Source: Pseudomonadota bacterium
GTDB taxonomy: Bacteria; Pseudomonadota; Gammaproteobacteria; Steroidobacterales; Steroidobacteraceae
Assembly (NCBI GenBank): GCA_025355245.1
Contig: JANXZZ010000023.1
Location: forward strand, 1 to 48,984
Length of the DNA: 48,984 nt
Direction: 5' to 3'
The position numbers were made by a program, and so were the translations under genes. Below the pieces are notes generated by a model. That model made no database searches. It saw only the letters and a program-made list of their open reading frames with translations, and was not told where the DNA came from. Each line of letters begins with the position of its first letter. Position 1 is the first letter of the stretch. Positions 13,142-33,619 of the stretch are shown piece by piece.

Positions 13142-13849
13142 CTACGCGACTGCGCCGCTGCCTGAGGACGGGCGGGCGGTGGCCGACGGCCACAGCGGGC
13201 GGGACACCGTCACGACACCGCCGCCGCCTGCCGCGATGCGCGCGCGGAAACCCACGCGGCGAGCCACCGCCAGCATCGCCGTGTTGGCGGCGAGGATCTC
13301 GCCGTCGATGTGCCGGTAGCGCAGGGCCCTCGCCCGCGTGACAAGCGCCCTCAGCAGCGCGATGCCGACACCACGACGTTGCCAGGCGTCGACAATTGTC
13401 AGCGCAAATTCGCAGTTCCCGCGACGCCGCGTGGCGACCACCCGGCCACCGCCGACGATTTCCGTTCCGCTCGCGTGACGGACGTACGCCAGCAACACGG
13501 CACAGCGAGGGTTGCGCGCTTGACGCGCGATCATCGCGAGCACGTTTGGAGTGAGCGTGGGCACCGGCATCATAAACCGCAGATAGCGCGACCGTGCCGA
13601 CAGGCGGTTGAAGAACTCCGGGCCACGACGGAGGTCCGCCGGAACGAGCGATCGGATATTCACCCGTGCGCCGTCCGGCAAGCGCACGTGGGCGCTCCCC
13701 GGGCGGGGCGAGTTCCCGACCGGTGGTGAGTTCCGGTCGCGAATCGCACTTGCCACGCGGCGTCCTCCGTCGTTACCGAGTCGCCGTCCGCATGTCGCGG
13801 CGAGCGTGCCTACGGCGCTGCCGGCGGCTGCGTACAGTAGGAATACCAT
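13142..13849 (-). CDS. GNAT-family N-acetyltransferase
   Basis: This is a 235-residue protein, from the ATG at 13849, with a single GNAT domain. The acetyl-CoA binding signature is clear: WQRRGVGIALLRALVTRAR followed by GEILAANTAMLAVARRVGF. Upstream, EFFNRLSARSRYLRFM is like the start of the acetyltransferase domain in protein-lysine acetylases of the Pat type. The N-terminal 40 residues (MVFLLYAAAGSAVGTLAA) are hydrophobic and may anchor it or be a misread start; a start nearer to 13700 is possible. It overlaps the peroxiredoxin gene by 40 bases and is the last gene of the cytochrome operon. The substrate is unknown; post-translational control of metabolism is one option. Confidence 0.8.
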   Translation of the reverse strand: MVFLLYAAAGSAVGTLAATCGRRLGNDGGRRVASAIRDRNSPPVGNSPRPGSAHVRLPDGARVNIRSLVPADLRRGPEFFNRLSARSRYLRFMMPVPTLTPNVLAMIARQARNPRCAVLLAYVRHASGTEIVGGGRVVATRRRGNCEFALTIVDAWQRRGVGIALLRALVTRARALRYRHIDGEILAANTAMLAVARRVGFRARIAAGGGGVVTVSRPLWPSATARPSSGSGAVA

Positions 13850-14451
13850 TCGACGCACCCCTGGCCGGGGTCCTCGGCAGTCAGTCTTCCGCCCGGTTCG
13901 ACCGCGGGTGTCCAATCTCCGGCCTGCCAGCCTTCGGGAGTCGCGACGTGCGCCTTGTCGGCCGCCTGCAGCGCGCGCACGAGACGGAGCACCTCGGCGA
14001 CAGAGCGTCCGGCTTCGCAAGGGTAGCGATGCATCGCCCGCACGACCCCGCGGGGGTCGATGACGAACAGCGCCCGCTCCGTCTCAGATCCGCGCGCCGA
14101 TTCCATGTCGTAGGCGCGCGCAATTCGCAGCGACGGATCCTCCAGGATAGGGAAATCAACGCTGACGCCGAACTCCCGCTTCAGGCTGGCCCGCCAGGCA
14201 GCGTGCGTCCCCGCGGAATCAATCGACAGGCCCAGCAGGCGGCAGTCGAGCGCCCGAAAGTCGCTGGCAGTCTGCGCGAAGCGCGCCATTTCGCTGCTGC
14301 AGACGGGTGTAAAGTCGGCGGGATACGCAAAAAATACGAGCCAGTGACCGCGAAAGGTGTCGAGGCTGATGGGTCCGTGGGTGGAGGCGCCCGTGAAGGC
14401 AGGCGCGACCTCGCCGATCCGTGGCGGAGCGAGGACGGGGGGAAGTGCCAC
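13810..14451 (-). CDS. 1-Cys peroxiredoxin (Prx6/AhpC-TSA family)
   Basis: It is predicted to reduce peroxides with a thiol electron donor. From the GTG at 14451 it is 213 residues. RIGEVAPAFTG opens the thioredoxin fold. The active-site block is PADFTPVC with C51 as peroxidatic Cys and T48 in the standard position. LLGLSIDS and FPILEDPSLRIARAYDM follow as in Prx6-type proteins, and the C-terminal GW(Q)AGDW is also family-like. Two further Cys at the extreme C-terminus (GCVEWYSYC) are unusual and could resolve the sulfenate. The start is 23 bases after the cytochrome c4 stop, so it is in the same operon as the Cyc2-like and c4 genes, consistent with peroxide defence tied to electron transport. 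Confidence 0.88.
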   Translation of the reverse strand: MALPPVLAPPRIGEVAPAFTGASTHGPISLDTFRGHWLVFFAYPADFTPVCSSEMARFAQTASDFRALDCRLLGLSIDSAGTHAAWRASLKREFGVSVDFPILEDPSLRIARAYDMESARGSETERALFVIDPRGVVRAMHRYPCEAGRSVAEVLRLVRALQAADKAHVATPEGWQAGDWTPAVEPGGRLTAEDPGQGCVEWYSYCTQPPAAP

Positions 14452-14474
14452 CGTTGTTCCCGCGGCCCGACGAC

Positions 14475-15098
14475 CTAAGGCTGCGACTCGAGGAACTCGG
14501 CGACTGCCGACATCTCCTCCGTCTTGAGTCCTTGTGCCACGCCGTGCATGACCGCGACGTTGCGCATGTTGCTCTGGAACGAGTTCAATTGCTTCAGGAC
14601 GTATTGGGCGTGCTGCCCCGCCAGACGCGGAAAGTCTCCGATGCCGTGGGCATCGGGTCCGTGGCACGCCGCGCACGCGGGGACGCCGACCGCCGCCACT
14701 CCCTGCTCGTAAATAATCTTACCGCGCGCGGTCAGTGCGGAGTCGCCACCCCGCCCGCTGCCCGCCGTCTGGCCCGAGTAGTACTGCGCGAGGGCGTCCA
14801 TCGTGCTGTCCTCGAGGTTGCCGGCCACGCCCCACATGTAGCCGATCGCATCCGGGTCACCGCGGGTCTGGCCGCGGAATGCCTTGAGCTGTGCGACCAG
14901 GTAGTTGGCGTTTTGGCCCGCGAGGCGCGGGTACTTCGGCTGCTGGCTGATCCCACGCGGTCCGTGGCAGGTACCGCAGATGCCGACAGCGAGTCGAACC
15001 GCCGTGGCGTGCGCGACCGGATCGGTTTCGTCGGCGAGCGACGCACCGGTCATCAGAGTCAGCAGAAGCGTGGCCAGCGTCAGGTACTTGTTCATCAT
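14475..15098 (-). CDS. Dihaem cytochrome c4-type protein
   Basis: This is a periplasmic electron carrier of 207 residues. A signal peptide (MMNKYLTLATLLLTLMTGAS-LA) precedes two homologous cytochrome domains with haem-binding CGTCH (41-45) and CAACH (142-146). Each is followed by a PRLAGQ(N/H)A segment and by a distal Met ligand (GYMWG and VMHGVA), as in cytochrome c4. AGGGG before the start is a good ribosome-binding site. A second ATG follows directly, so the start may be 15095. It lies 26 bases after the Cyc2-like cytochrome-porin and before the peroxiredoxin, so all are probably one transcript. In the Acidithiobacillus rus pathway a c4-type dihaem cytochrome takes electrons downstream of Cyc2; a similar role here is inference. 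Confidence 0.93.
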   Translation of the reverse strand: MMNKYLTLATLLLTLMTGASLADETDPVAHATAVRLAVGICGTCHGPRGISQQPKYPRLAGQNANYLVAQLKAFRGQTRGDPDAIGYMWGVAGNLEDSTMDALAQYYSGQTAGSGRGGDSALTARGKIIYEQGVAAVGVPACAACHGPDAHGIGDFPRLAGQHAQYVLKQLNSFQSNMRNVAVMHGVAQGLKTEEMSAVAEFLESQP

Positions 15099-15124
15099 GA
15101 CATTAACCCCTGTTACCAAGCCGG

Positions 15125-16486
15125 TCAGTACGACAGCCAGACAAGCGCATAGATCGTGTTGTTGTCTTTCGCGTTTCGGCCGGCGCCGTCGTAGTTGGTT
15201 CCGAGGCCGCTGTACTTGCTGTAGTTGACGTACTGCAGCGACAGCTTGGTGTTGAGCCAAGGGAGGTAATTCAGCTCCGCGGTCAAGCCCTTGGTGTCGG
15301 GTAGCCCGCTCGTGTTGCCGAGAAACGTGGTGTCGTTGCTGCCGGTCGTGGAAAAGAAGCCCAGCGTGCCGCCGATCTTGCGCTGGTAGTAGTAGGTCCC
15401 GTTCGCGCGGACGGTCGTCAGGTCGTCGCTTAGATTGTCAGCCTTGCCGGCAGCGAAGGATGCGTTCAGCGTCTGCGCCTCATGGATTCGGGTCGCCTCA
15501 AAGCTGAAGAAGTGCTGGTCGGCGATGAACTGATACTGCACGTCCTCGGCGACGTCCTGGTACTTGTCGGCAGGTCCCGCAAGCGGCTGGCCGTAACCCG
15601 CTCCGAAATCCGGGAACACATTGAAGGTCGCGCCGTAGATACCGACCTCGATCGAGTGGCGACCGAGATTGTGCTCGTAAGCGAGACGCCAGTAGGGCGC
15701 GCCTCCCTTGAGGACGCCACCGGCGCTGGTGCTGTCGAGAGGTCCCGCCGTTCCCTGCTTCGCCGAGCGATAGACACCCAGTTCTCCGTATAGTGACTCG
15801 TTCCAGAATGCGTACGCCGTCAGTCCCGCGACGTCCTGGGCACGCCCGCCATCGATCTGTGCGCCGTAGGGCACGCCCGGTGCGGCGCCGGAAGCGGCAT
15901 AGGGGAAGCCGAACGCGGGAGTCGAGTTCCAGAGGTCCTGCACGGTCGGATTGTTGTTTAGCGACAGCCCGTAGACCAGACTCTGGTCGTTGGGCAGGAT
16001 CTTGAGGTCGGCGTAGCGGATGTCGGTGTTGTCGATGCCGATCGTGCCGCCGTCGTAGGAATAGGTAAGCTGCAGGAACGCGCCGACGTGCGGGGCGATC
16101 TTGCCAGCGTAGAAGAGACTCACCTGCTGCGGGAACGCGATCGTGCCGTTCTGCGAGCCACCGGCAACCGCGGAATCGGGCAACGGCTTCGCCAGCTGCG
16201 TGCCAGATACCTGCACCATCAGCGACAACGGCGGCAGGGCGGCTAGTTCCAGGATCTCGTCGCGTTGTGGGGTGACACCCTTCACTTGCTTCAGGTTGTC
16301 GATCACGTAGCCGCTGGCCTTGAACATCCGGCCAAAGTGCGTGAGTTCCGGCCACACCGTATGGCATGCCTCGCAGGCCATGCCTGTCTGCCTGGCAAAA
16401 CTGGGTACGGCTCGTGCGACCAGCGGTCCGCCCATGAGCGCAAGGCCGAGAAGCAGAGTTCCGAGCGTGCGTGCGACTGACGTCAT
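15125..16486 (-). CDS. Cyc2-like outer-membrane monohaem cytochrome-porin fusion (copy 1)
   Basis: From the ATG at 16486 the protein has 453 residues. GAGGAGG eight bases upstream decides this start over one 20 codons earlier. A signal peptide ends at VARA (about residue 26). The mature protein begins PSFARQTGMACEACHTVWP, giving one haem-c site at residues 38-42, followed by HFGRMFKASGY. The remaining 400 residues have alternating aromatic/polar strands and end in WLSY, an outer-membrane beta-barrel profile. One N-terminal CXXCH joined to a barrel is the architecture of Cyc2, the fused cytochrome-porin used for Fe(II) oxidation, and QTGxxCxxCH plus FGRxFK resembles it. The substrate is unproven. 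It heads an operon with cytochrome c4, peroxiredoxin and GNAT. A paralogue lies at 31327-32700. Confidence 0.82.
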   Translation of the reverse strand: MTSVARTLGTLLLGLALMGGPLVARAVPSFARQTGMACEACHTVWPELTHFGRMFKASGYVIDNLKQVKGVTPQRDEILELAALPPLSLMVQVSGTQLAKPLPDSAVAGGSQNGTIAFPQQVSLFYAGKIAPHVGAFLQLTYSYDGGTIGIDNTDIRYADLKILPNDQSLVYGLSLNNNPTVQDLWNSTPAFGFPYAASGAAPGVPYGAQIDGGRAQDVAGLTAYAFWNESLYGELGVYRSAKQGTAGPLDSTSAGGVLKGGAPYWRLAYEHNLGRHSIEVGIYGATFNVFPDFGAGYGQPLAGPADKYQDVAEDVQYQFIADQHFFSFEATRIHEAQTLNASFAAGKADNLSDDLTTVRANGTYYYQRKIGGTLGFFSTTGSNDTTFLGNTSGLPDTKGLTAELNYLPWLNTKLSLQYVNYSKYSGLGTNYDGAGRNAKDNNTIYALVWLSY

Positions 16487-16655
16487 GTTGCCCTCCTCGA
16501 TTGCCAGGTCGTGCGGCCGACCTTTCAACAAGCGTGGGCGCGTCACGCCGTCCTGTCAGTTCGGGAGACCACACACGAAGCTGCGGCAACTACGTACGCT
16601 TGCGCACAAAGCTGCCGGCCGCGGACCGCGCGAACGGAGTGCAACGAGCGGGCCG

Positions 16656-18056
16656 CTAGACGGCGCGCGAGTACCTCGGCATCGTGCTGTCAGGGGACTT
16701 AGCGTACAGGTAAGGGTCGAAGACCATGGCAATATTTCGCATCAACAGGCGACCGCGCTCGGTTACCTGCAGGCCCCGGTTCACCCGGGTGACCAGGCGA
16801 TCCGCGAGGAGCGGCGCAAGCGCCGCAAGCTCGGCCGCGAAATGGGACTCGAAGTGAATTCCGTGCCGCGCCTCGATGCTTTCGAACTCGACCCGCAAGC
16901 CGCTCATCAGCGCCTGGATCACGTCGCGGCGCAGTGCATCCTCCGCGGTCAGGCGAACGCCCCGATCGGTGGCGAGCCTGCCCGTGTCGATCGCCGCGTA
17001 GTAGCGATCGAGCGTCTTCGCGTTCTGGGAGTAGGTGTCGCCCACCTTCGAGATTGAGCTCACGCCAAGCCCGATCAGATCGCACTCGGCCTGCGTCGAG
17101 TAGCCCTGGAAATTGCGGTGCAAGCTGCCATCCTGCTGCGCCTTCACGAGTTCGTCGTCCGGTCGGGCGAAATGATCCATGCCGACATAGACGTAGCCGG
17201 CCGCCGTGAGCCGCTCGACCGTGAGGCGGAGCAAGGCAAGCTTCTCGTTGGGGGAAGGCAGGTCAGCGCTCCGAATCTGCGTCTGCGGCTTGAACAGGTG
17301 CGGGAGGTGGGCGTATGAGTACACCGCGAGGCGGTCCGGACGGGCACCGGTCACGAGGTCGAGCGTGCGCGCGAAGCTCTCCACTGTCTGCAGCGGCAGG
17401 CCATAGATCAGATCGACACTGATCGAACGGATTCCGGAGTCGCGCGCGGCGCTGATGAGTCCGAACGTGTGCGCCGCGGATTGCACGCGATTGACCGCGG
17501 CCTGCACCGCGGGATCGAAGTCCTGAATGCCGAGGCTGACCCGGTTGAAACCGAGGGCCGCGAGACGCGCCACGCCGCTGGCATCGACCGTGCGCGGGTC
17601 GATCTCGATCGAGAACTCGCGTGCGTCGTCGCGGCAGAGCGAGAAGCTCCGCTCGAGCATCGCCATCAGATCGGCAATCTGTTCGGTCGTCAGGAATGTC
17701 GGCGTGCCGCCGCCAAGGTGCAGTTGCCCCACCGCGCGGTGCCGGCTGAACGCGGCCCCGACCAGCTCGATCTCCCGGCCAAGCTTGGTGAGGTAGAGGG
17801 CGCCCCTGCGCGCATCGCGGGTGATCACCTTGTTGCAGCCGCAGTAGAAACACGGGCTCGTGCAAAACGGCACGTGCACGTAGATTGACAGCGGCTTAGG
17901 CGGTGCGCCCGAGTTGCTGGCGCGCGCGGCGGCCAGGAACTGTTCGGGGCCGAAACTCGGGTCGAACTGGACGACTGTTGGATAGGACGTGTAGCGCGGT
18001 CCGGGCCGATCGTAGCGACGGATCAAGCTCTCATCGAAAACGGAACTGTCGGTCAC
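16656..18056 (-). CDS. hemN: Oxygen-independent coproporphyrinogen III dehydrogenase
   Basis: This radical-SAM enzyme converts coproporphyrinogen III to protoporphyrinogen IX without oxygen in haem synthesis. At 466 residues it is full length. The N-terminus RYDRPGPRYTSYPT is the HemN signature. The cluster motif C65-x3-C69-x2-C72 lies in FCTSPCFYCGC, with the extra Cys typical of HemN. GGGTPTFL, SIEIDPRT and the C-terminal HemN region (GLRVEFESIEARHGI) follow. It stands 170 bases upstream of the Cyc2-like operon on the same strand. Haem supply for c-type cytochromes and low-oxygen growth fits the neighbouring FixLJ and stress-protein genes. I saw no FNR-type box in the upstream sequence. Confidence 0.95.
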   Translation of the reverse strand: MTDSSVFDESLIRRYDRPGPRYTSYPTVVQFDPSFGPEQFLAAARASNSGAPPKPLSIYVHVPFCTSPCFYCGCNKVITRDARRGALYLTKLGREIELVGAAFSRHRAVGQLHLGGGTPTFLTTEQIADLMAMLERSFSLCRDDAREFSIEIDPRTVDASGVARLAALGFNRVSLGIQDFDPAVQAAVNRVQSAAHTFGLISAARDSGIRSISVDLIYGLPLQTVESFARTLDLVTGARPDRLAVYSYAHLPHLFKPQTQIRSADLPSPNEKLALLRLTVERLTAAGYVYVGMDHFARPDDELVKAQQDGSLHRNFQGYSTQAECDLIGLGVSSISKVGDTYSQNAKTLDRYYAAIDTGRLATDRGVRLTAEDALRRDVIQALMSGLRVEFESIEARHGIHFESHFAAELAALAPLLADRLVTRVNRGLQVTERGRLLMRNIAMVFDPYLYAKSPDSTMPRYSRAV

Positions 18057-18393: not shown

Positions 18394-19359
18394 CTAGTGG
18401 TCGTGCCGCGGCCCGGCCGCGAGTGGGTCGGCGGCGGCGATCGAAGCTCGGTCGTTGCCCTTGACGTCCGCGGACGCGCCGCCGCTGCCAGACGCTACGG
18501 CGTCAGTCAGGACCACGTCGCCTGCAAACGCTGCCAGGACTCTGCCGGCGACGCTGCGCAAGGCGGGGGCGCCGACGAGTCGGGGTTTCTCCAGGACGAC
18601 GAGATCGTAGTCCCGCTCGACGACATAGGCGGGAACGACGTCCTTTGCGGCACCGTCCAGGAACCGGGGCGGGCCGGCCGGCGCGCGGCCGGCGAAGCTC
18701 TCGGGCGATTGCGGGCCGCCCTGCGAAGGCTCATCCCGTGCGTCCGCGCCGCCGGGTCTTACCCGCAAGAGGTCCACGTCCGCGCCGCAGGCGAGGGCAA
18801 GCGTCGCACTCAGCTCGGCGACGGCCCGGGCAGAGGCGGGCACGGCGCCGTGCGATGATTCGAGCGCGGCCGCGAACTTAGGAACTGGGCGCCACGACCG
18901 CCCACGCGTCAAGAGCAGGGGCACGGGACACGCGGCGACCGCGGCCCAGTCCGCCGCGCCGCGACCGCCCTCGTCCTGGCGGCTCGCTTCGACCGCTTTC
19001 ACGATCAGGTCGGTTGCACTGCGCTGCGCTTTTTCAGCGATCGCCTCGCGCAATGATCGATGGCAGATCGCCTCGCTCGCGATCTCGACGTCGGGCGCGA
19101 CGATGCTTTTACGAAGCGCCTGCAGGTAGTCGCTACCCTCGGCCACGCAGCGCGCGTGGGTGCGCGCGCGTGCGTCGGTCGCGGGAGCATCGGGGTCGAT
19201 ATGCACGTAACCCTCTGTATCGCATAAGAATATGTCAAGTCTGGCGTGGAAGTGGCGCACCAGCATCAACGCTTTGCTGAGCGCCTGATGGACGCGGTCG
19301 CCGCGCTCGACGAGCAGCAGAATGGAGGCGAGGGCTTGCATGGGAGCCCGATGGTCCAA
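18394..19359 (-). CDS. Tandem UspA-type universal stress protein
   Basis: This is a 321-residue cytoplasmic protein built of two UspA-like domains. The first opens ASILLLVERGDRVHQALSKA and includes SATDLIVKAVEAS and CPVPLLLTRG. The second is more diverged (ALACGADVDLLRVR, YDLVVLEKPRL, GRVLAAFAGDVVLT). The C-terminal 35 residues are low-complexity. Such proteins accumulate under respiratory or oxygen stress, but the biochemical role is usually unknown. It is divergent from the FixL-type kinase with about 60 bases between the starts, and the phosphoketolase remnant follows it. In related bacteria UspA, phosphoketolase and HemN genes sit together under low-oxygen control; that is general knowledge applied here as inference. 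Confidence 0.85.
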   Translation of the reverse strand: MDHRAPMQALASILLLVERGDRVHQALSKALMLVRHFHARLDIFLCDTEGYVHIDPDAPATDARARTHARCVAEGSDYLQALRKSIVAPDVEIASEAICHRSLREAIAEKAQRSATDLIVKAVEASRQDEGGRGAADWAAVAACPVPLLLTRGRSWRPVPKFAAALESSHGAVPASARAVAELSATLALACGADVDLLRVRPGGADARDEPSQGGPQSPESFAGRAPAGPPRFLDGAAKDVVPAYVVERDYDLVVLEKPRLVGAPALRSVAGRVLAAFAGDVVLTDAVASGSGGASADVKGNDRASIAAADPLAAGPRHDH

Positions 19360-19420
19360 CCCCGCGCGCCGCGTGGCTATGCGATGCTTCGCGTACTGTC
19401 CGGTGGAAACTACCTACTGC

Positions 19421-20932
19421 ATGGCGCTGCCAGTAACTCCGTCCTTCGAGATTCAGGCGCTGCTCGATGCGACCGTAGATGCGGTGATCCTCATCGATGC
19501 CGACGGCATCGTGGAGGTATTCAACCACTCGGCCGAGCGGATGTTCGGGTACGCGGCGGCGGAGGCCGTCGGGCAAAACGTCAGCCTGCTGATGACCGGC
19601 CGCGACCGGCACCACCACGACGGGTACCTCGAGCGGTATGTAAGGACGGGGGTTGCCCACATCATCGGAACCGGTCGGGACGTTCGCGGCCGCCGCAAGG
19701 ACGGTCACGAGTTTCCGGCGTTCCTGTCCGTGGGCCGGATCGCGGACTCGGACCCACCTCGCTTTGTCGGCTTTATCCAGGACACCACGCTGCGCGTGCA
19801 GGCGCTGGCTGCCGTGCAGCGCGAGCGCGACCGCGCAAACCGCTACCTAGAGGCTGCGCAGACGATCTTGGTGGCGCTCGACCTGACACACCGCGTGACG
19901 CTGATCAATCGAACCGGCAGCGAAGTGTTGGGGTATGACGAGGACTTTCTGAACGGCCGTGACTGGATCGACACGGTCGTCGCCCCTGCCGAGAAAGCGC
20001 AAGTGGCGGCGCTGGTAGATCGGCTCGCCGAGCGGGGGCCGCGCTCGCCACTGCACTGCGAATACAGCATCGTCACGCGCGCCGGCCTCGACCGGATGAT
20101 TGCGTGGCGCTGCGTGGTGCTCGAGGACGGCACAGGTGATGCGACCGGCATCCTGTGCTCGGGCGATGACGTGACGGAGAGTCGCAAGGCGGAGCGCGAC
20201 GCGCGCGAATCGCGCGAACGCATGATGCACGTGTCCCGACTTGCGACGATGGGTGAGATGGCGACGGGAATATCGCACGAACTTAACCAGCCGCTCGCGG
20301 CGATCGCGAACTACGCCCAGGCGGGAGTGCGTCTCATGCAGCTCCCGCAACCGGAGCTTGCCGACGTCAGGGAGGCCCTCGGTCAGATCGCGGGCCAGGC
20401 GCTAAGGGCGGGCGAGATCATCCGGCGCCTGCGGAGCCTCGTGAAGAACCGGATTACGGAGCGTGAAGCCGCGAGCATCAATGACATCATCGAAGAGCTC
20501 GGCCCGATAGCGCGGGCCGACGCGCGGGCCAACGACGTACGGATCGTCCTCAATCTCGCGCAGGAGCTCCCGCCAGTGAGCGTCGACCGGATCCAGATCC
20601 AGCAGGTGCTGCTGAACCTGCTGAGAAACTCGATCGACGCGCTCGCTGCCGTTTCTGCGGTAAGCCGGCAAATCGTTGTCCAGAGTGCGGCGACTGAAGC
20701 AGGCGACATCACGGTGACTGTGACGGACAACGGCACAGGCATCGCGCCGGCCGTGCTCGACCGCCTGTTCATGCCGTTTGTCACGAGCAAGACCGACGGG
20801 ACGGGCCTCGGTCTCGCGATAAGCCGGACAATCATGGAGGCCCACAAAGGGCGCCTCGACCATTCCCCGCAATCGGAACGCGGTGCTTCTTTCGTCATGA
20901 CGTTGCCTAGCGGGCCGGGGACAAACCCATGA
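19421..20932 (+). CDS. fixL: FixL-type haem-PAS oxygen-sensing histidine kinase
   Basis: From the ATG at 19421 the kinase has 503 residues; the open frame extends 33 codons upstream without a ribosome-binding site. Domains: first PAS (about 10-125), second PAS (about 135-260), HisKA with phospho-acceptor His in TGISHELNQPLAA, and a HATPase with NLLRNSIDA, DNGTGI and DGTGLGLAIS. The first PAS matches the FixL haem domain: H66 in HHHDGYLERY occupies the place of the haem ligand (His200 in Bradyrhizobium FixL). R86 in HIIGTGR lies exactly 20 residues later, as Arg220 does. It should therefore bind haem and respond to oxygen. No membrane helix is visible, unlike Rhizobium meliloti FixL. Its stop overlaps the fixJ start (ATGA). 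Confidence 0.92.
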   Translation: MALPVTPSFEIQALLDATVDAVILIDADGIVEVFNHSAERMFGYAAAEAVGQNVSLLMTGRDRHHHDGYLERYVRTGVAHIIGTGRDVRGRRKDGHEFPAFLSVGRIADSDPPRFVGFIQDTTLRVQALAAVQRERDRANRYLEAAQTILVALDLTHRVTLINRTGSEVLGYDEDFLNGRDWIDTVVAPAEKAQVAALVDRLAERGPRSPLHCEYSIVTRAGLDRMIAWRCVVLEDGTGDATGILCSGDDVTESRKAERDARESRERMMHVSRLATMGEMATGISHELNQPLAAIANYAQAGVRLMQLPQPELADVREALGQIAGQALRAGEIIRRLRSLVKNRITEREAASINDIIEELGPIARADARANDVRIVLNLAQELPPVSVDRIQIQQVLLNLLRNSIDALAAVSAVSRQIVVQSAATEAGDITVTVTDNGTGIAPAVLDRLFMPFVTSKTDGTGLGLAISRTIMEAHKGRLDHSPQSERGASFVMTLPSGPGTNP

Positions 20933-21546
20933 AGCTTCCGCCCGCGACCGTTTTCGTCGTCGATGACGACGAGGCCGTTCGTAGTTCTCTACGCATGCTG
21001 ATCAAGTCGATCGGGCTTCCGGCCGCGCTATACGCATCGGCGCAGGAGTTCCTGTCGGCCTACCAACCGGAACATCCGGGCTGTCTGGTGCTCGACATTC
21101 GAATGCCGGGCATGAGCGGACTGGACCTCCAGCGGAACCTCAGCCTGCGCGGCGCGGTCATCCCGATCGTGTTCGTTACCGGCCATGGCGACGTGCCGAT
21201 GGCGGTCGACGCCATGCAGCAGGGAGCATTCGATTTTCTGCAGAAGCCGTTTCGCGACCAGGACCTCATCGATCGCGTGCAGCGAGCCTTCGCGAAGGAT
21301 GCGGCGAACCGGCGCGCGCTCGCGGAGACCGGCCGCATCCGTGAACACCTCGAGTCGCTCACGGCCCGCGAACGCGAGGTACTCACCCTCGTGACGAGCG
21401 GGAAAGCGAACAAGGTCATTGCAAGCGAACTCGGCGTCAGTCCGCGGACGGTCGAGATTCACCGCGCACGCGTGATGGAGAAGATGGATGCCCCTTCGCT
21501 CGCGGCGCTTGTCCGCATGGTCCTCAACCTCGAGCGTCCGCGCTAG
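20929..21546 (+). CDS. fixJ: FixJ-type response regulator
   Basis: This is a 205-residue two-domain regulator. The receiver domain has the acidic pocket VDDDE, phospho-acceptor D56 in LVLDIRMPG, the conserved Thr in VFVTGHGDV and Lys in FLQKPF. The LuxR-type HTH follows (LTAREREVLTLV, ASELGVSPRTVEIHRARV, MEKM...SLAALVRM). The arrangement and sequence are those of FixJ/TodT-like regulators. It is translationally coupled to the FixL-type kinase through ATGA. It should activate low-oxygen genes when FixL is deoxy; likely targets are the neighbouring stress-protein and respiratory genes, though I could not identify a binding site. A remnant of a paralogous C-terminus lies at 30493-30573. Confidence 0.93.
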   Translation: MKLPPATVFVVDDDEAVRSSLRMLIKSIGLPAALYASAQEFLSAYQPEHPGCLVLDIRMPGMSGLDLQRNLSLRGAVIPIVFVTGHGDVPMAVDAMQQGAFDFLQKPFRDQDLIDRVQRAFAKDAANRRALAETGRIREHLESLTAREREVLTLVTSGKANKVIASELGVSPRTVEIHRARVMEKMDAPSLAALVRMVLNLERPR

Positions 21547-25305: not shown

Positions 25306-26811
25306 CTACGACCGCGGTTGGAGCCAGTTCGGCAGGAACGTCAGTGGATCGTCGTGGACGGATTCATTGAATTTAACGTGACTTGCCGCTAGCGACGTCT
25401 GCAGGCGCCCGTCTTTGCAGGCTTGGAGCACGTCCATCGCCCCGCCCAGGAATTGGCCGCCGATGAAGATTTGCGGAATTGTCTGCACCGAAGTCTTCGC
25501 AGTCAGCGCCGCGCGAATCTTGCCGCCACGATTCCCGTGTTGATATTCGACCGAATCGAGGTCGACTGATCGGTAGGAGATGCCGTACTTGCCAAACATG
25601 CGTCGAGCCGACCAGCAGAATTCGCACCATTCGAGCGCGAACATCACGACGGGCTGCTCAGGGTCGCCCAGCAGTCGGTCTATGAACGCGGCCGCATCGG
25701 CATCCACCGGCAGTGGGGCGATTTCGACCTTCGGCTGCGGCGATGGCACCGGTGCAGGCGCTGCCGAATCAAACCGATAATGTGGCGTCGACCGAGCGAT
25801 GGTCAGCTCGTCTTCGGTCATGTCGGAGGGGATGTCGGAAAACAGCGGCGTGCTCAGGTAACGCTCACCGGTATCCGGCAGCATGCACAGGATGTTCGCG
25901 CCCTCGCGCGCCGATTGACTCACCTGCAGCGCGCCGGCAAAGGTAGCCCCGCCGGAAATACCCACAAATATCCCTTCCTTCTGCGCCAGGTCGCGCGCGC
26001 ACCTGAGCGCGTCGGCACCTGCGATCGGAATGATGCGATCCACGAGCTTCAGGCGCAACGCATCTTCCACCAGTGCCGGAATGAAGTCCGGACTCCACCC
26101 CTGCATCAGATGCGGGCGGAAATTCGGATGGCTGCCTGCCGCCACGCCCTCCTTAGTGCGCGGCTGCGGAATTCCGCTGCCGAGAATCTGCGAGTTGTCG
26201 GGTTCGCAAACCACGATTGTCGTGTTCGGGCGGGCCTCGCGCAGCACGCGGGCAACGCCCTTCAGCGTTCCGCCCGTGCCGAAGCCCGTCAACCAATAGT
26301 CGAGCTCGTCGCCGTCGAAGGCCTCGAGTATTTCGGGCGCGGTCGTGCGCGAGTGCGCATCGGCGTTGGCTTCGTTCTCGAACTGGCGGCAGAGGAACCA
26401 GCCGTGTTTGTCGGCGAGCTCGGTAGCCTTCGCGAGCATGCCGCTGCCTTTGAGCGCCGCGGGGGTCAGCACGACCTTCGCGCCCAGAAAGCGCATCATC
26501 TTGCGTCGCTCGACGCTGAAATTCTCCGCCATCGTGACGACGAGCGGGTAGCCTTTCTGAGCGCAGACCATGGCGAGCCCGATGCCGGTATTGCCGCTCG
26601 TCGCCTCGATCACGGTCTGGCCCGGCCGAAGCGTTCCACGCCGTTCGGCGTCCTCTATGACGCCGAGCGCGAGGCGGTCCTTGACCGATCCCATCGGGTT
26701 GAACGATTCGATCTTGACGAACAGATTGACGTGCGCTGGCGCTAGCCGATTGATCCTGACGACGGGCGTGTGGCCGATCGTACCGAGGATATTGTCGATC
26801 CTCTTGCTCAA
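25306..26811 (-). CDS. Cysteine synthase/cystathionine beta-synthase-like enzyme fused to glutaredoxin
   Basis: This is a two-domain protein of about 501 residues. Residues 1-330 are a fold-type II PLP enzyme: NILGTIGHTPVVRINRL, the PLP Lys K44 in GSVKDRLALG, the TSGNTG loop (71-75), GFGTGGTLKG and the C-terminal GISGGATFAGAL. This is the O-acetylserine sulfhydrylase/CBS catalytic core. After a proline-rich linker (PAPVPSPQPKVEIAPLP) a glutaredoxin follows, with VVMFALEWCEFCWS (CxxC), QTIPQIFIGGQFLGG and DVLQACKDGRL. The open frame extends to 26979, but the TTG at 26811, preceded by a G-rich run, begins exactly at the family's N-terminus. The fusion suggests redox coupling of cysteine synthesis, or persulfide chemistry. 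IS-end-like repeat A lies upstream. Confidence 0.9.
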   Translation of the reverse strand: MSKRIDNILGTIGHTPVVRINRLAPAHVNLFVKIESFNPMGSVKDRLALGVIEDAERRGTLRPGQTVIEATSGNTGIGLAMVCAQKGYPLVVTMAENFSVERRKMMRFLGAKVVLTPAALKGSGMLAKATELADKHGWFLCRQFENEANADAHSRTTAPEILEAFDGDELDYWLTGFGTGGTLKGVARVLREARPNTTIVVCEPDNSQILGSGIPQPRTKEGVAAGSHPNFRPHLMQGWSPDFIPALVEDALRLKLVDRIIPIAGADALRCARDLAQKEGIFVGISGGATFAGALQVSQSAREGANILCMLPDTGERYLSTPLFSDIPSDMTEDELTIARSTPHYRFDSAAPAPVPSPQPKVEIAPLPVDADAAAFIDRLLGDPEQPVVMFALEWCEFCWSARRMFGKYGISYRSVDLDSVEYQHGNRGGKIRAALTAKTSVQTIPQIFIGGQFLGGAMDVLQACKDGRLQTSLAASHVKFNESVHDDPLTFLPNWLQPRS

Positions 26812-27020
26812 AGTGCCCCCCGACGCAGCAGATTTGTGGCTCTTGGACCCAAAAGCCGCGTTCCCACCGCTGATGATAGACGACACGCGAGCATCTACGG
26901 CACTTGGCTCGCCCTTCTCGACCAATTCTCGCCAAAAGTGCCGCTGGGGACCCGCCAGATTGTCGCGCGGGCGCATCACTGGGGAAGCGGCTCCGTGCGG
27001 CTTCGCTCAACGGACTCACC

Positions 27021-28141: not shown

Positions 28142-30046
28142 GTGCTTGATTGGTTCAACGCTCGCGAAGCGGTCGACGCAGGTGTCGCGCTGGCCGACTA
28201 TTTCTCGGGAAACACGCAGTCGGTTTCGAAGAAGCGACGCAACGTATCGTCGCGCCGAGACCCCGGGAGAGCGCTGCAAGATCTCATGCGGCAGACGGAC
28301 CGCGATCAACGGGTTCAGCGCCTCAATTTCTATCAGAAGGCTCGATTCGCCACTTCCTTCAAATGGCAGTTGCTCCAGGGCGGAGTTGCGCCCGCCATAG
28401 CCGCTGAATTGACGCGGCGGGTAGTGGTTCATCTGTCCCTGAATTCGGGCGGCTCCGCGCTTGGGAAAAACTCGCCCGCTGCGCCGATCAGTTCAAGCGA
28501 CTCCGGCAAAGCGCGCTATTGCTTCGATCAGGCCAACGCATGCGTCGCGCAGGGCGCGCATTCCGAGGCAGTGGGTCTGTATCAGGCCTGCGTCAGGCTC
28601 AATCCCCGTCATACCGACGCTATCAATAACCTAGCCGCTACATTGTGTGAACTGGGGCGCTACGAGGAGGCAGAAAACCACTTTCGGGCAGCGATCAGTC
28701 TGAATGCGAATCACCCCGAAGCGCATGGAAACCTCGGGGCCCTGCTGCGCTCGAAGGGTCGCCTTGACGACGCCGAGGCGTCGCTGCGGCGCGCCATCAA
28801 ATTGCGACCGGACTTTATCGACGCGCGCTGCAATCTCGGTTCGACGCTCACTGCCCTCGGTCGCCTGCGCGATGCCAGGGCGCACTTCAAGAGAGCTCTG
28901 AAGGTCGTACCTCGCCATGCCGGCGCCTTGTTGGGCCTGGGTCATGTCGCGAGGCTCGAAGGGCGCTTCGAGGAAACCGGCGCAATGTTCAAGCGCGCGC
29001 TAAAGGCCAATCCGACGATGCCAGACCTCTGGGCCTCAATGGTCGGACAACGTAAAATGACGACGGCTGACGCCGATTGGCTGAAGCGCGCGGAGGAACT
29101 CGCGGCCGGTCGCATCACGCCTTTGCAGGATGCTGACCTGCGATTCGCGATGGGGAAGTACTGCGACGACGTGGGAGACTTCCCGAGGGCCTTTGACAAC
29201 TACCGGCGCGGCAATGCATTGCTGAAAAATGTAGCCGGACCCTATGAACGGGGCGCGCGCACGCGCTTCGTTGACGACCTCATCCAGGCCTACTCTTCGC
29301 AAGCTAGCTTTATTCCCGCAGACGGGGCGTCTGACTCGGTGCAGCCGATTTTCGTCGTCGGCATGATGCGGTCGGGCACGTCGCTCGCTGAACAGATCAT
29401 CGCGTCGCATCCGTCGGTGAAAGGCGCGGGAGAACTGGGATTCTGGAATGACGCCGTTCGTGAGCATGAATCCGCCGTGCGGGCGGCGCCCTTGGAGCGC
29501 GTGAGGAGAACTCAGCTTAGCCAAGCGTATCTACGAGTCCTGACGAGCCGAGTCCCTGACGCATCGCGCATTGTTGATAAGGCGCCGGTCAACTCCGACT
29601 ACCTCGGCCTCATTCACTCGGTGTTCCCGAGAGCTCGCATCATTTATATGCGCCGAAACCCTATCGACTCGTGCCTGTCCTGTTATTTTCAGCAGCTTTC
29701 GCCCGCCTTGACGTTCACGATGGACTTGTCGGACCTCGCGCACTACTACCACGAACATCATCGACTCATCGCGCATTGGCGCAGCGTGCTCCCGCCCGGA
29801 ACCATCCTCGACGTGCCTTACGCGGAACTGGTCGCGGACCAAGAAGGGTGGACCCGCAAGATCCTCGAGTTCCTTGGCCTCGAGTGGGATCGGCAGTGCC
29901 TCGACTTTCACAAGACCAACCGCCCGGTCGTGACTGCCAGCTTTTGGCAGGTACGGCAGAAGATGTACCGCGAATCCGTCGAGCGCTGGCGCAACTACGC
30001 TCAGTTCATCGGTCCGCTGCTACGCCTGACGCCTTTGGCTGCGTGA
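28142..30046 (+). CDS. TPR-repeat sulfotransferase
   Basis: This is a 634-residue protein from a GTG at 28142. The N-terminal 110 residues are not recognised. About 125-300 are at least four tetratricopeptide repeats (ARYCFDQANACVAQGAHSEA, NNLAATLCELGRYEEAENHF, GNLGALLRSKGRLDDAEASL, CNLGSTLTALGRLRDARAHF). The C-terminal half is a sulfotransferase domain. FVVGMMRSGTSLAEQIIASH is the 5'-phosphosulfate loop of PAPS binding, MRRNPIDSCLSCYFQ is the 3'-phosphate region, and YAELVADQEG follows. It should transfer sulfate from PAPS to a protein tyrosine or glycan, with the TPR part binding the substrate. Such TPR-sulfotransferases are frequent in Xanthomonadales and related groups. No PAPS synthesis genes are near. 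Confidence 0.88.
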   Translation: MLDWFNAREAVDAGVALADYFSGNTQSVSKKRRNVSSRRDPGRALQDLMRQTDRDQRVQRLNFYQKARFATSFKWQLLQGGVAPAIAAELTRRVVVHLSLNSGGSALGKNSPAAPISSSDSGKARYCFDQANACVAQGAHSEAVGLYQACVRLNPRHTDAINNLAATLCELGRYEEAENHFRAAISLNANHPEAHGNLGALLRSKGRLDDAEASLRRAIKLRPDFIDARCNLGSTLTALGRLRDARAHFKRALKVVPRHAGALLGLGHVARLEGRFEETGAMFKRALKANPTMPDLWASMVGQRKMTTADADWLKRAEELAAGRITPLQDADLRFAMGKYCDDVGDFPRAFDNYRRGNALLKNVAGPYERGARTRFVDDLIQAYSSQASFIPADGASDSVQPIFVVGMMRSGTSLAEQIIASHPSVKGAGELGFWNDAVREHESAVRAAPLERVRRTQLSQAYLRVLTSRVPDASRIVDKAPVNSDYLGLIHSVFPRARIIYMRRNPIDSCLSCYFQQLSPALTFTMDLSDLAHYYHEHHRLIAHWRSVLPPGTILDVPYAELVADQEGWTRKILEFLGLEWDRQCLDFHKTNRPVVTASFWQVRQKMYRESVERWRNYAQFIGPLLRLTPLAA

Positions 30047-30492
30047 TTGTCCTGTTGCGCTCGACAAGCGCGGGACGCTTTTGGAAACCACCTTAGCCAG
30101 GCAGGGGCGCGTCCCGCGAAACAGCGGCAAAACCGGCTGCCTGAACATCGGTCGCATGAGACGACTCGTGGCAGCGCGCACCGCGCTACGAGATCGACAC
30201 AGGCCGAAGCAGAGACTCAAAAATATGACGCAGGCGGCGACAAACGAGCAAGCGCATACGTCGGCAGGATGCCGGAGCGGAAGAACTTCTCGACTTCTCG
30301 TCGCGCGGAAACTGCGGGGCACGATTCGCGCGACAGCACGCGACCCTTTCTCAGTGTGAGCGGGCCAAGTTGAACCACAGACGTTCCGGTCGCATGGGTC
30401 CCGCAAGTATTCACGTCATGCGTACGGCGCCTAGCTGGACCTTAGAGTCGCCATTAAAAAAGTCCTCGGCGGCATTGTCTGCTCGTTTTAGA

Positions 30493-30573
30493 CGAGAAAG
30501 CCTTGTGGAGAAGATGAAAGCGCAATCACTGGCGGCGCTCGTGCGCATGGTCGTGGAAGTCGAGCGCCCGCGC
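30493..30573 (+). pseudogene. Remnant of a FixJ-like regulator C-terminus
   Basis: The frame reads SLVEKMKAQSLAALVRMVVE and ERPR. By eye 18 of 27 residues agree with the end of the FixJ protein encoded at 21466-21543. This is the last helix of the LuxR-type HTH. Nothing upstream in any frame looks like the recognition helix or a receiver. The rest of the 686-base interval between the sulfotransferase and azurin genes shows no recognisable gene. It is a relic of a duplicated or transferred fixJ-like gene. Confidence 0.5.
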
Positions 30574-30732
30574 CAGCGTTCCCGCAGCAGCGTGGCGTCC
30601 GGCAGAGGGGATTCCGCCACCCCACAAACGTCCGCCACCACGAATCGCGCACGCTGCCATGGCTGACGAGGTGTCGCCGACTGGCCGGGGCGTCGACCCC
30701 ATTCGAGTTAGACGGCCCTACGCTAAACCGAC

Positions 30733-31290
30733 CTAAGTGTGCTCCGCCGCGACGATCGGCGTCGGCGGCGATGCGGTATTGCCGCGCGCTGGTGATTCCG
30801 AGCTTTCCCTGACCGCAACTTCGCGGGTGCTGGAGTCACCAAACACGAGGACGCCATGCATCACAGAGCGGTGCCCCGGCGTCGAGCAGAAAAACGTGTA
30901 GGTGTTGCCCGCGCGCAGGCTCGCAGTGCTGAACATCACGGTCGTCGTTTCACCGCCACCGACCAGCGCGGTCGCCGCGATGATGCGCTTGTCACCTTGC
31001 GGCTGGTAGTTGTGACTGCGACCGGCGTTTTGGCCCGCGATCGCAACCGCCGCGACGTCAGCGTTTCGGACCAGCACCCAGTTGTGTCCCATCACTTGAG
31101 CTGGTTGCTTCCCAACGTGGTGCAGCGTCAGTTCCACGTCGCTGCAGCCGGACCCGATCTCAAGCTTCTTCTGGTTGAACTGCATCAGATCGTTGGCTTC
31201 GACCGATACGCGGCAGACATCGGCGTGTGCCGGCATCGCCATTGCCGCGAGGGCCAGGATGCCAATAATGGCTGGGCATGCGCGGTTCAT
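30733..31290 (-). CDS. Azurin (type I blue copper protein)
   Basis: This is a periplasmic one-electron carrier. The signal peptide ends at AHA (about residue 23). The mature part follows azurin closely: copper ligands H69 in MGHNWV, C135 and H140 in FFCSTPGH, and M144 in SVMHG. The spacing H-66-C-5-H-4-M is identical to Pseudomonas azurin. The structural disulfide Cys pair (C26, C49) is also 23 apart as expected. A 30-residue Ser/Ala/Pro-rich C-terminal tail is an unusual extension. AGGAGAGGA before the ATG is a strong ribosome-binding site. It lies 36 bases downstream of the second Cyc2-like gene, so they are probably one operon. Electron transfer between the pair is a reasonable inference, comparable to rusticyanin with Cyc2. 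Confidence 0.95.
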   Translation of the reverse strand: MNRACPAIIGILALAAMAMPAHADVCRVSVEANDLMQFNQKKLEIGSGCSDVELTLHHVGKQPAQVMGHNWVLVRNADVAAVAIAGQNAGRSHNYQPQGDKRIIAATALVGGGETTTVMFSTASLRAGNTYTFFCSTPGHRSVMHGVLVFGDSSTREVAVRESSESPARGNTASPPTPIVAAEHT

Positions 31291-31326
31291 GAGCGGTCCT
31301 CTCCTATGACGTGGGCGGGGTGGGTA

Positions 31327-32700
31327 TCAGCCGATGACCCAGAAATAGGCAAAAAGCGTGTTGTTGTCGTGCGCGGAGCGGCCGAAGCCGTCGTAGTTGG
31401 TATCGCCACCGTTGAACTTCGTGTAGCCGGTGTATTGGAGTCCGAGCCGCACGTTGAGCCACGGCCGGGCGAAGGAATCCAGTTTCCCGAACGGTATCCA
31501 TTCGAGCTGCAGGACGTAGCCGCGGCTGTCGGGCGAGCCGTTGTTGCTGCCGTCGAGCGGATTGGGAGCGTAGAGCACGCTGTCGCTACTGCCGCTCGTG
31601 TCAAAGCCTTCGACCGACCCGACCCAAGTGCGCCGGAACGAATAGGTCACGTCCGCATGCAGCGCCGTCAGGTGGCTGGAGGTCGAGGTGGCCGCGCCAG
31701 TTGCAACGCTCGCATCGAGGGTTGCATGCTCGCGGATGGCGGCGAAGTTAACGGCGACAGCGTGTGGCCCTTCGTTGCTCTCCTGAAACGTCGCGTCAAA
31801 ACCGATGTCCGTGTAACGGTCTCTCGCGGCAACTGTCGGGTCCGGCGCAACGTCCACCTGCATCCCGAAGGTGCCGATCGACCACTGCCGCTCGCGGTCG
31901 CCGGCCTGGTACGCCGCACGCCAGTAAGGCGCAATGCCATCGAGGTGCGCGCTGGCGTCCGGCGTAAGTCCGGTGTTGCTGAGCCAACGGTCGGATAGAC
32001 CCCGGTAGCCGCCCGCCTCGAGGTAGTAGTGGCCGTCGATCATCGCGTACGCGGTTGCACCGAGTACCGTTTGCGCGAAGCCACCGATGACCGGTCCGGC
32101 GGTGGGTGACGGGGCGAGCGCCGAGGTGATGTAGGGCGCTCCCCAGGCAGGCGTCGAATTCCAGAGGTCCTGGACGGTTGGATTGTTGTTGACGGATACC
32201 CCGACGACCGCCCCCGTATTGCCAAGCGCAATGGCGCGCGCGTAGCGGATATCGAGGTTGTCCCAGTTAGCGTGGCGATCCGGACCGCTGTAGGTAGCCT
32301 GCACGAACGCGCCGGCATGCTGGCCGATGCGGCCGGCGAAGAACAGGCTCGTCTGGTCGATGGAGAAGTTGTCGTTCGTGCTCGTGTGCGGCGCCGGCAT
32401 CGAAGGCTGGTCGGCGCTGGTGTGGGTGTAGCCACCCTGAACCATTAACGCGAGCGGGATGAAGTGCTCGACGTCACCGAGCGCGTAGGCGTTAAGCTTG
32501 AACTCGCGCCCGTAGGGGGTCAGCGCGGGGCCGTAGCCCACCGTATGACACTGCGAGCACGGCATTCCGGTTTGCTCGGCGAAACTGGGTAGCGCGCGTG
32601 CCGGGCCGGGTACCGCGAGCAGCGCGGTCGCGGCTAGAAACGGCGCAATCCGTCCGCACAACATCCCGAGCCGCCGCCCCATCGACTGCTGAAATCGCAT
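31327..32700 (-). CDS. Cyc2-like outer-membrane monohaem cytochrome-porin fusion (copy 2)
   Basis: This is a 457-residue paralogue of the protein at 15125-16486. The signal peptide ends near ARA (residue 36). The mature protein opens LPSFAEQTGMPCSQCHTVGY with a single haem-c site (C48, C51, H52), then YGREFKLNAYAL. A barrel-like C-terminal domain of about 390 residues ends YFWVIG. The two paralogues share VNNNPTVQDLWNSTPA/LNNNPTVQDLWNSTPA, DNLDIRYA/NTDIRYAD and TNYDGxGRxAxDNNT. GGGAGG about 10 bases before the ATG supports the start. It is followed by azurin. The architecture matches Cyc2 of iron oxidisers and related cytochrome-porins. Whether the outer electron donor or acceptor is iron, another metal or something else cannot be read from sequence. 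Confidence 0.82.
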   Translation of the reverse strand: MRFQQSMGRRLGMLCGRIAPFLAATALLAVPGPARALPSFAEQTGMPCSQCHTVGYGPALTPYGREFKLNAYALGDVEHFIPLALMVQGGYTHTSADQPSMPAPHTSTNDNFSIDQTSLFFAGRIGQHAGAFVQATYSGPDRHANWDNLDIRYARAIALGNTGAVVGVSVNNNPTVQDLWNSTPAWGAPYITSALAPSPTAGPVIGGFAQTVLGATAYAMIDGHYYLEAGGYRGLSDRWLSNTGLTPDASAHLDGIAPYWRAAYQAGDRERQWSIGTFGMQVDVAPDPTVAARDRYTDIGFDATFQESNEGPHAVAVNFAAIREHATLDASVATGAATSTSSHLTALHADVTYSFRRTWVGSVEGFDTSGSSDSVLYAPNPLDGSNNGSPDSRGYVLQLEWIPFGKLDSFARPWLNVRLGLQYTGYTKFNGGDTNYDGFGRSAHDNNTLFAYFWVIG

Positions 32701-33619
32701 CTAGCAACGCCTCCCCTAGCGCATCCCCGTTATCGCCGAGGCCTCGCGGACATCAGCGTGTCGCGAAACTCTCGGGTCCATAATTTCCCAGCGGCACGGC
32801 GGCAGACAGTGGGGTATCGCTTGATGACGCGCGAGGGAAGAGGGTAGCGACCGTCAAGCGACGCCTGACAGAGCGCTATCAACGAGTTCGGCACAGACAG
32901 AATCGGTATGTGCGATGAGTCGGTAGTCAGGTTCAACCGATCGAAAATATTCTTGTCCGGCGCTGGAGACTGTCGCTGCGTGTGCAGCCGACCATGAGTC
33001 CATCGCCCCGTGCCCGGTCGTGAGGCAGATCGCGGCGTCTGTTGCGCCGTTTTGGTTCACCGAACTGGCGAGCTGCTAAGGAATCGTTCGCAAACCATTG
33101 AATTGGGTGTGTAAGGTTTGTGCTGTGACAGCGTCAATGAAGTGCGCTTTGAGCGCGGCCCTACGAACAAAAAAAGTGCGGAGCCGTGCGCTTTGATCAT
33201 TGGGTTGCCCGCACGGGCGAAGCGACCTTGAATGTGCGCACGGCGGCTGCGTGCGCGCAGCCGCGTGGAATTCGGCCGGCGCCGCTCGCCGTCGGCACGG
33301 TGTGTCAAAGGCCTGCTCAACGAGAGGCCGGACGTCGGTGCGACGCCGGGTGCTGGCTCTAGCGGTCGCCGCGGGAACGGTGGTCATTCGGCGCGGGTCC
33401 GACGCAGAACCGGACGGTAAGGTCACGCGCTCTTTAGTCTGCCGGTGATATATCTTCTGGGGCGCTTCGGTTCCCGGCCAGCTACCGGAACGTGACGGCT
33501 GGCGTCCGGCGGTAGCATGTACCGGATTCGTGAACCCGCAGGCCGTCCGGAGTGGCTTGACAATTCGCCTCGGTTATACCCAGTATGTCAAGGCGATCCT
33601 GACGGAGGAGATACTGTAG
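32701..33619. other. Long intergenic region, no gene recognised
   Basis: About 920 bases lie between the divergent Cyc2-like gene and the zinc-finger/HTH gene. Short open frames exist on both strands, but none shows a family motif or a good start. The part around 33060-33200 is less GC-rich than its surroundings and contains a run of seven A. It could be regulatory DNA or a decayed gene. Confidence 0.4.
33603..33609 (+). promoter_or_regulatory. Ribosome-binding site of the zinc-finger/HTH gene
   Basis: CGGAGGA (with GGAGGAG overlapping) about 9 bases before ATG at 33620 is the strongest Shine-Dalgarno in the area and supports that start. Confidence 0.65.

Follow-up and report, generated by a model that had tools for sequence, protein, structure and literature searches.

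The closest described relative of the locus considered here is the Cyc2/rusticyanin pathway of Acidithiobacillus, Acidiferrobacter, and Acidihalobacter, in which a homologous monohaem cytochrome-porin is combined with a blue copper carrier in the periplasm. A second system, Cyc2-Cyc1 of neutrophilic iron oxidisers such as the Zetaproteobacteria, pairs Cyc2 with a dihaem cytochrome c (PMC7029218). According to PMC8406198, Cyc2 is characterised by: (i) a single N-terminal CXXCH after a signal peptide; (ii) the motif AXPXFAR[Q/K][T/Y]; (iii) PXL 4 residues past the haem motif; (iv) a length of at least 365 aa; and (v) a 16-strand outer-membrane barrel. A 2025 paper describes the evidence for periplasmic carriers of Cyc2 as limited, and states that expression of cyc2 on its own does not follow iron oxidation (PMC12442390). 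Cyc2 has already been reported in a Steroidobacteraceae MAG (PMC8357290). Azurin genes are generally not in operons, a multigene operon having been described in 1 of 10 selected Proteobacteria genomes (PMC8779525). In the available text of two papers that cover both Cyc2 and azurin, the azurin is incidental (PMC10367259; PMC5982212), and the Cyc2-azurin pair was not found in the accessible portions of the open-access literature on Cyc2, cytochrome-porins, azurin, cupredoxins, and cytochrome c4.

The window, that is, the whole stretch of 48,984 nucleotides that was analysed (contig JANXZZ010000023.1, assembly GCA_025355245.1, family Steroidobacteraceae), carries such a pair, with the following features:

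31327..32700, reverse strand: Cyc2-like monohaem cytochrome-porin, 457 aa, predicted 16-strand barrel (open reading frame, homology, model)
32545..32559, reverse strand: haem c binding motif CSQCH, residues 48-52 (sequence)
31291..31326, reverse strand: gap of 36 nt with ribosome-binding-like AGGAGAGGA (sequence)
30733..31290, reverse strand: azurin with signal-like N-terminus and C-terminal extension, 185 aa (TIGR02695, PF00127, PDB azurins)
30859..31086, reverse strand: copper-site span H69 to M144, spacing 66-5-4 (sequence)
30736..30837, reverse strand: azurin C-terminal extension, residues 152-185, past the usual azurin end (tail length, model)

An earlier note on this DNA had described an azurin with all of its copper ligands at 66-5-4 spacing, 36 nt downstream of the barrel gene, and both points hold in the coordinates and the sequence. 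The protein scores 158.1 bits against the azurin model TIGR02695 (cut-off 105.1) and 55.5 bits against PF00127, and a PDB search matches it to azurins of known structure (E 1.8e-34). Its ligands are H69-C135-H140-M144, and the same spacing recurs in 23/23 azurins linked to a barrel. C26 and C49, which we take to be the azurin disulphide positions, are invariant in 17 aligned linked azurins. The protein thus shares ligands, spacing, conserved cysteines, and family score with azurins such as that of Alcaligenes, whereas the linked type differs from an ordinary azurin in its C-terminal extension and its conserved two-gene arrangement. The window azurin runs for 41 residues past the ligand Met, beyond the usual azurin length, which is a common rather than a defining trait; judged by its residues, it is an otherwise complete azurin plus an extension. 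Within the 36-nt gap, an AGGAG-like stretch precedes the azurin ATG. Of 21 gaps measured in the other pairs, 20 lie between -4 and 47 nt, the exception (L040, 132 nt) stemming from a late start call; barrel and azurin overlap by 4 nt in five pairs (L042, L045, L047, L049, L068), which suggests translational coupling. Scanning 30400-33100 for sigma-70 promoters and terminators yielded no signal that stood clearly above shuffled sequence.

The barrel has a signal-like, hydrophobic N-terminus ahead of its CSQCH, and C48, C51, and H52 are invariant across 20 aligned sequences. It has no Pfam or NCBIfam match, and a PDB sequence search returned no clear homologue (best E 0.43). An AlphaFold2 model built from 46 sequences has 16 strands (pLDDT 86.5, pTM 0.83). 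With this model, Foldseek returns mostly outer-membrane porins (E ~2e-7 to 2e-5 among the 50 rows listed) at modest query-normalised TM-scores (0.24-0.48); the top row is a barrel for polysaccharide secretion, and 5O78, the published best match for a Cyc2 model, comes at row 46. A barrel homologue from a Robiginitomaculum MAG (L082) lacks CXXCH in its open frame.

An authentic Cyc2 was sought by context, through a rusticyanin search (TIGR03095) over 369 genomes of the class. Genome G355 alone is above the cut-off, followed by G411 at 137 bits (cut-off 146.7). No barrel occurs in the stretches examined at the rusticyanin loci of G355, G505, and G299, or at a second G411 locus; one G411 locus, L187, is the sole rusticyanin locus among those examined that has a barrel. 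Its gene order is cyc2, a gene in the Cup position, coxB, coxA, a coxC-like gene, ctaA, ctaB, and rusticyanin. Pfam backs the genes for COX2, COX1, CtaA, UbiA/CtaB, and the copper protein; the cup-like gene and the coxC-like gene have no match. The order agrees with the rus operons as described in PMC10654088, except that cyc1 does not lie between. The window barrel aligns over its full length with the Cyc2 of this rus operon at 30% identity (E 8e-67). In L187 the gene in the published Cup position lies directly behind cyc2, as azurin lies behind the window barrel. On the other hand, the window pair has azurin in place of rusticyanin, no cox gene lies beside it, and the window genome has no TIGR03095 match. 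The analogy between azurin and rusticyanin is logical, not orthologous.

Of the published traits of Cyc2, the window barrel has the single N-terminal CXXCH, the length, and, in the model, the 16 strands. It does not carry the strict sequence motif, reading ALPSFAEQT with E for R; neither does the rus-operon Cyc2 of L187. The strict motif is present in 5/23 azurin-linked barrels and in 13/13 c4-linked barrels from the same genomes, and a relaxed form in 23/23 azurin-linked barrels. PXL is present as PAL, 5 residues past CXXCH; the spacing is likewise 5 residues in 20/23 linked barrels (no match in 3/23), and 3 residues in the 13 c4-linked barrels and L187. The label "Cyc2-like", already used in the earlier note, is retained because the homology to a rus-operon Cyc2 is full-length and the strict motif fails: the protein is a homologue of Cyc2, and a certified Cyc2 is not claimed.

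The barrel and azurin form a conserved module. A barrel match occurs in 56 of 150 genomes surveyed from the GTDB family. The 85 match rows comprise 22 of the azurin-type clade (defined as at least 49% identity to the window barrel), 50 others, and 13 fragments or frameshifted pieces that were left out. One azurin-type locus (G129) ends at its contig, which leaves 21 assessable; azurin lies directly downstream on the same strand in 17 of them. The four clade members without an adjoining azurin are G146, G120, G054, and G072. In G072, which is 97% complete, the genome search gave no azurin match, so that the barrel can exist without azurin. In G120 (locus L050) the next genes after the barrel, on the opposite strand, are by eye one resembling an FTR1-type iron permease and then a cupredoxin-like one. 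A scan of named genomes, in which the best 80 of 534 confirmed relatives were examined, adds 6 further azurin pairs, all from gammaproteobacterial MAGs, for at least 23 distinct pairs overall. Outside the family, azurin lies downstream of none of the 26 distinct barrels labelled from the best 30 class-survey loci, two of these barrels ending too close to a contig end. The comparison of homologous neighbourhoods that the earlier note had proposed therefore speaks for a recurring pair.

Gene neighbourhoods were further compared at 16 family loci of 6-20 kb each, within eight positions of the pair. The barrel is common to 16/16 and azurin was called in 15; at the sixteenth (L048) azurin is present and was missed by the gene caller. 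No other gene in this interval recurs at more than 4 of the 15 remaining loci. The barrels of these pair-bearing genomes are 53-74% identical to that of the window and come from five genera.

A second module of the same general kind lies elsewhere in the window:

15125..16546, reverse strand: paralogous Cyc2-like cytochrome-porin of the sister module (42% identity; same haem motif and blocks)
14475..15152, reverse strand: dihaem cytochrome c4-like carrier of the sister module (PF00034, 56.4 bits)

The paralogue was expected to share the haem motif and barrel blocks of the window barrel. It does so, the blocks NNNPTVQDLWNSTPA and TNYDGAGRNAKDNNT occurring in both proteins. The sister module (14475-16546) resembles the Cyc2-Cyc1 system, from which the azurin module differs in that its carrier is a copper protein and not a cytochrome. 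Within the family, c4 lies downstream of 44/50 barrels of other than azurin type, five of these c4 labels having been read by eye. The proposal of two modules with different carriers, 15 kb apart, stands in its first part: both occur in 13/17 pair-bearing genomes, the window genome included, and are thus a family feature. The 15-kb proximity, by contrast, was not met in the 12 other two-module genomes, in which the modules lie on different contigs; many of these assemblies are fragmented, but G094 has long contigs for both modules, which there lie far apart.

Several other genes of the window deserve mention. The sister module lies between genes for an AhpC-type peroxiredoxin and a HemN-like radical SAM protein (13813-18056 in all), which suggests low-oxygen or redox regulation. 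Near the c4 module (19322-21546) are genes for a PAS histidine kinase and a LuxR-type response regulator, which by eye resemble FixLJ. Just past azurin (30478-30573), a 32-aa stretch is similar to the C-terminal end of this same regulator (56% identity, E 7e-6), a hint that a second copy has decayed beside the azurin module. The interval 25306-26979 encodes a PLP-dependent enzyme (PALP, cysteine-synthase-like by eye) fused to a C-terminal glutaredoxin domain, and 28142-30046 encodes TPR repeats fused with a sulfotransferase domain.

Taken together, our analysis favours, as the likely explanation, a transcriptional and probably functional module in which an outer-membrane conduit supplies a dedicated azurin with electrons whose source is probably Fe(II). 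The donor would lie outside the cell, most likely as Fe(II) or as the reduced surface of a mineral or of humic matter. By homology and from the biology of Cyc2, electrons may enter via the single N-terminal haem of the barrel, pass inward to the dedicated periplasmic azurin, and continue to the respiratory chain, with a haem-copper oxidase as the probable sink. The two genes would be co-transcribed, and the paralogous barrel with its dihaem cytochrome c4 may do the same job in parallel; the two modules might, as the earlier note suggested, serve different potentials. COX1-family genes are found in 17/17 pair-bearing genomes, in some as fragments only; nitric oxide reductases belong to this family too. 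RuBisCO-family genes turned up in 4/17 and not in the window genome, so that lithoautotrophic growth on iron is not general; these counts point to a supplementary, not an obligate, lithotrophy.

Azurin is best known as an established electron donor of nitrite reductase, and could serve NirS or NirK here as well, its place behind the barrel being incidental. NirK is indeed above cut-off in 4/17 pair-bearing genomes (G140, G094, G063, G122) and in 5/22 clade genomes. However, the window genome (87% complete) has neither NirS nor NirK above cut-off, its cd1-domain match (18.8 bits) falling below it. The one strong cd1 match among the 22 clade genomes is in G120, which lacks the pair, and there is none in the 17. 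Weaker matches above the Pfam cut-off occur in G009, G143, G105, G054, and G129; those of G105, G009, and G143 score 25.7-36.8 bits and cover part of the domain. Adjacency to the barrel, moreover, persists while the near neighbours change. Nitrite reductase was rejected as the general partner of the linked azurins, and we regard an incidental placement of the gene as improbable.

It could also be argued that the adjacency arose once and was inherited by shared ancestry, with no functional coupling. A single origin is consistent with the barrel tree, which includes 161 of 165 distinct barrels after the removal of 4 with fewer than 330 matched residues; all 23 azurin-linked barrels fall into one 27-row set with support 98. 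Special co-divergence of barrel and azurin beyond that of the sister barrel was not seen either: across 13 genomes, distances of barrel and azurin correlate at r 0.43, less than those of sister barrel and azurin (r 0.57), and the partial correlation of barrel and azurin is 0.33 (permutation p 0.024). Nevertheless, the barrels are 53-74% identical across five genera with neighbours shared by at most 4/15 loci, and inheritance without selection should have broken the pair too; other barrel clades, furthermore, fill the same slot with other electron carriers. An unselected pair is in our estimation unlikely.

The distribution of azurin itself was examined with respect to the module. It is above cut-off in 43/150 family genomes. 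All 17 pair-bearing genomes have exactly one azurin found, the linked one, and the other 26 azurin-bearing genomes have 28 unlinked azurin genes. The search of the window genome (348 contigs, 87% complete) found two barrels and one azurin in total. A PF00127 search of that genome returned a copper protein on contig C227 (40.6 bits) and missed the window azurin, so that absence in such searches is not proof. A tree of the azurins (70 rows, 139 columns), in which many forks are unresolved, places the 23 linked sequences in one 25-row set (SH-aLRT 91), together with the class sequence L237 and the azurin of G146. In the latter genome, the azurin-clade barrel and its azurin lie on separate contigs; the pair seems to have been split and both genes kept. 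The outcome that the earlier note would have counted against a module, an adjacency unique to this genome, was not seen: the adjacency recurs, and linked azurins stand apart from the others.

Least probable, and very doubtful in our view, is an outward or metal-handling module, in which the barrel would serve to export electrons or to sense copper or iron, and azurin to protect the cell from metal or oxidative stress. Azurin is associated with stress resistance, a peroxiredoxin gene is next after the sister c4 gene, and 13/17 genomes lack a RuBisCO-family match, but azurin has a high potential, which fits electron uptake from Fe(II) better than reduction in the outward direction. Electron flow in the homologous systems, rus and Cyc2, is also inward (PMC10654088).

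The linked azurins are further set apart by a derived C-terminal tail. They have 13-41 residues past the ligand Met in 22/23 cases, whereas 41 of the 42 unlinked azurins measured have 6-8 (26/27 from the family with 6-8, 14/14 from the class with 7-8, and L129 with 7); 3 of 68 non-PDB azurins without a C....H...M match were left out of the count. The sole long-tailed unlinked azurin (19 residues) is the relocated azurin of G146. The short-tailed linked exception (L017 of G134, 8 residues) joins the azurin set at its unresolved base, as does L237 (7 residues). The window tail is modelled as partly helical at lower confidence (helix 153-164; block pLDDT 59-76 across the tail). A motif [KRED]x?[LVI][AVS] occurs in 20/24 tails against 5.5 in shuffles, with 0/2000 as high, and is a lead only, because it was chosen after inspection of the tails. 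Codon-position differences in the tails of six close pairs are too few to judge. C-terminal extensions were also sought in the c4 carriers, and none was seen. The tail is likely a docking or tethering element.

The carrier slot varies across the barrels. Downstream of the 161 tree barrels, on the same strand, lie azurin (23), c4 (47), a monohaem cytochrome (14), another cupredoxin (4), no carrier by the tests applied (67), or the contig end (6); these proportions are no census, because the named loci among them are the best 80 of 534. Among the other cupredoxins, those of L115 and L026 are backed by Pfam, as are two of the monohaem cytochromes; the remaining labels of these kinds rest on motifs, and that of L187 on operon position. 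The carrier labels are strongly clustered on the barrel tree, requiring 22 changes against 80.4 in shuffles, and 34 c4-linked barrels form another set (support 100). The cupredoxins behind the barrels of L115 (9382-9834) and L026 match PF00127, and look by eye pseudoazurin-like and amicyanin-like. A broader proposal, which we put forward tentatively and would not yet favour, is that the Cyc2 superfamily is a plug-in conduit in which each barrel clade has captured its own carrier (azurin, c4, monohaem c, or other cupredoxins). The azurin-clade tail would then dock the carrier at the periplasmic mouth of the barrel, and azurin would there amount to a subunit of an electron-uptake complex in the outer membrane.

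Little is known about which periplasmic carrier accepts electrons from Cyc2 in organisms other than acidophiles. The linked, single-copy azurin with its derived tail is a concrete candidate partner for a Cyc2-like barrel, for which the sister c4 module of these genomes serves as a built-in comparison. If the proposed reading is true, azurin would gain a role in extracellular electron uptake.
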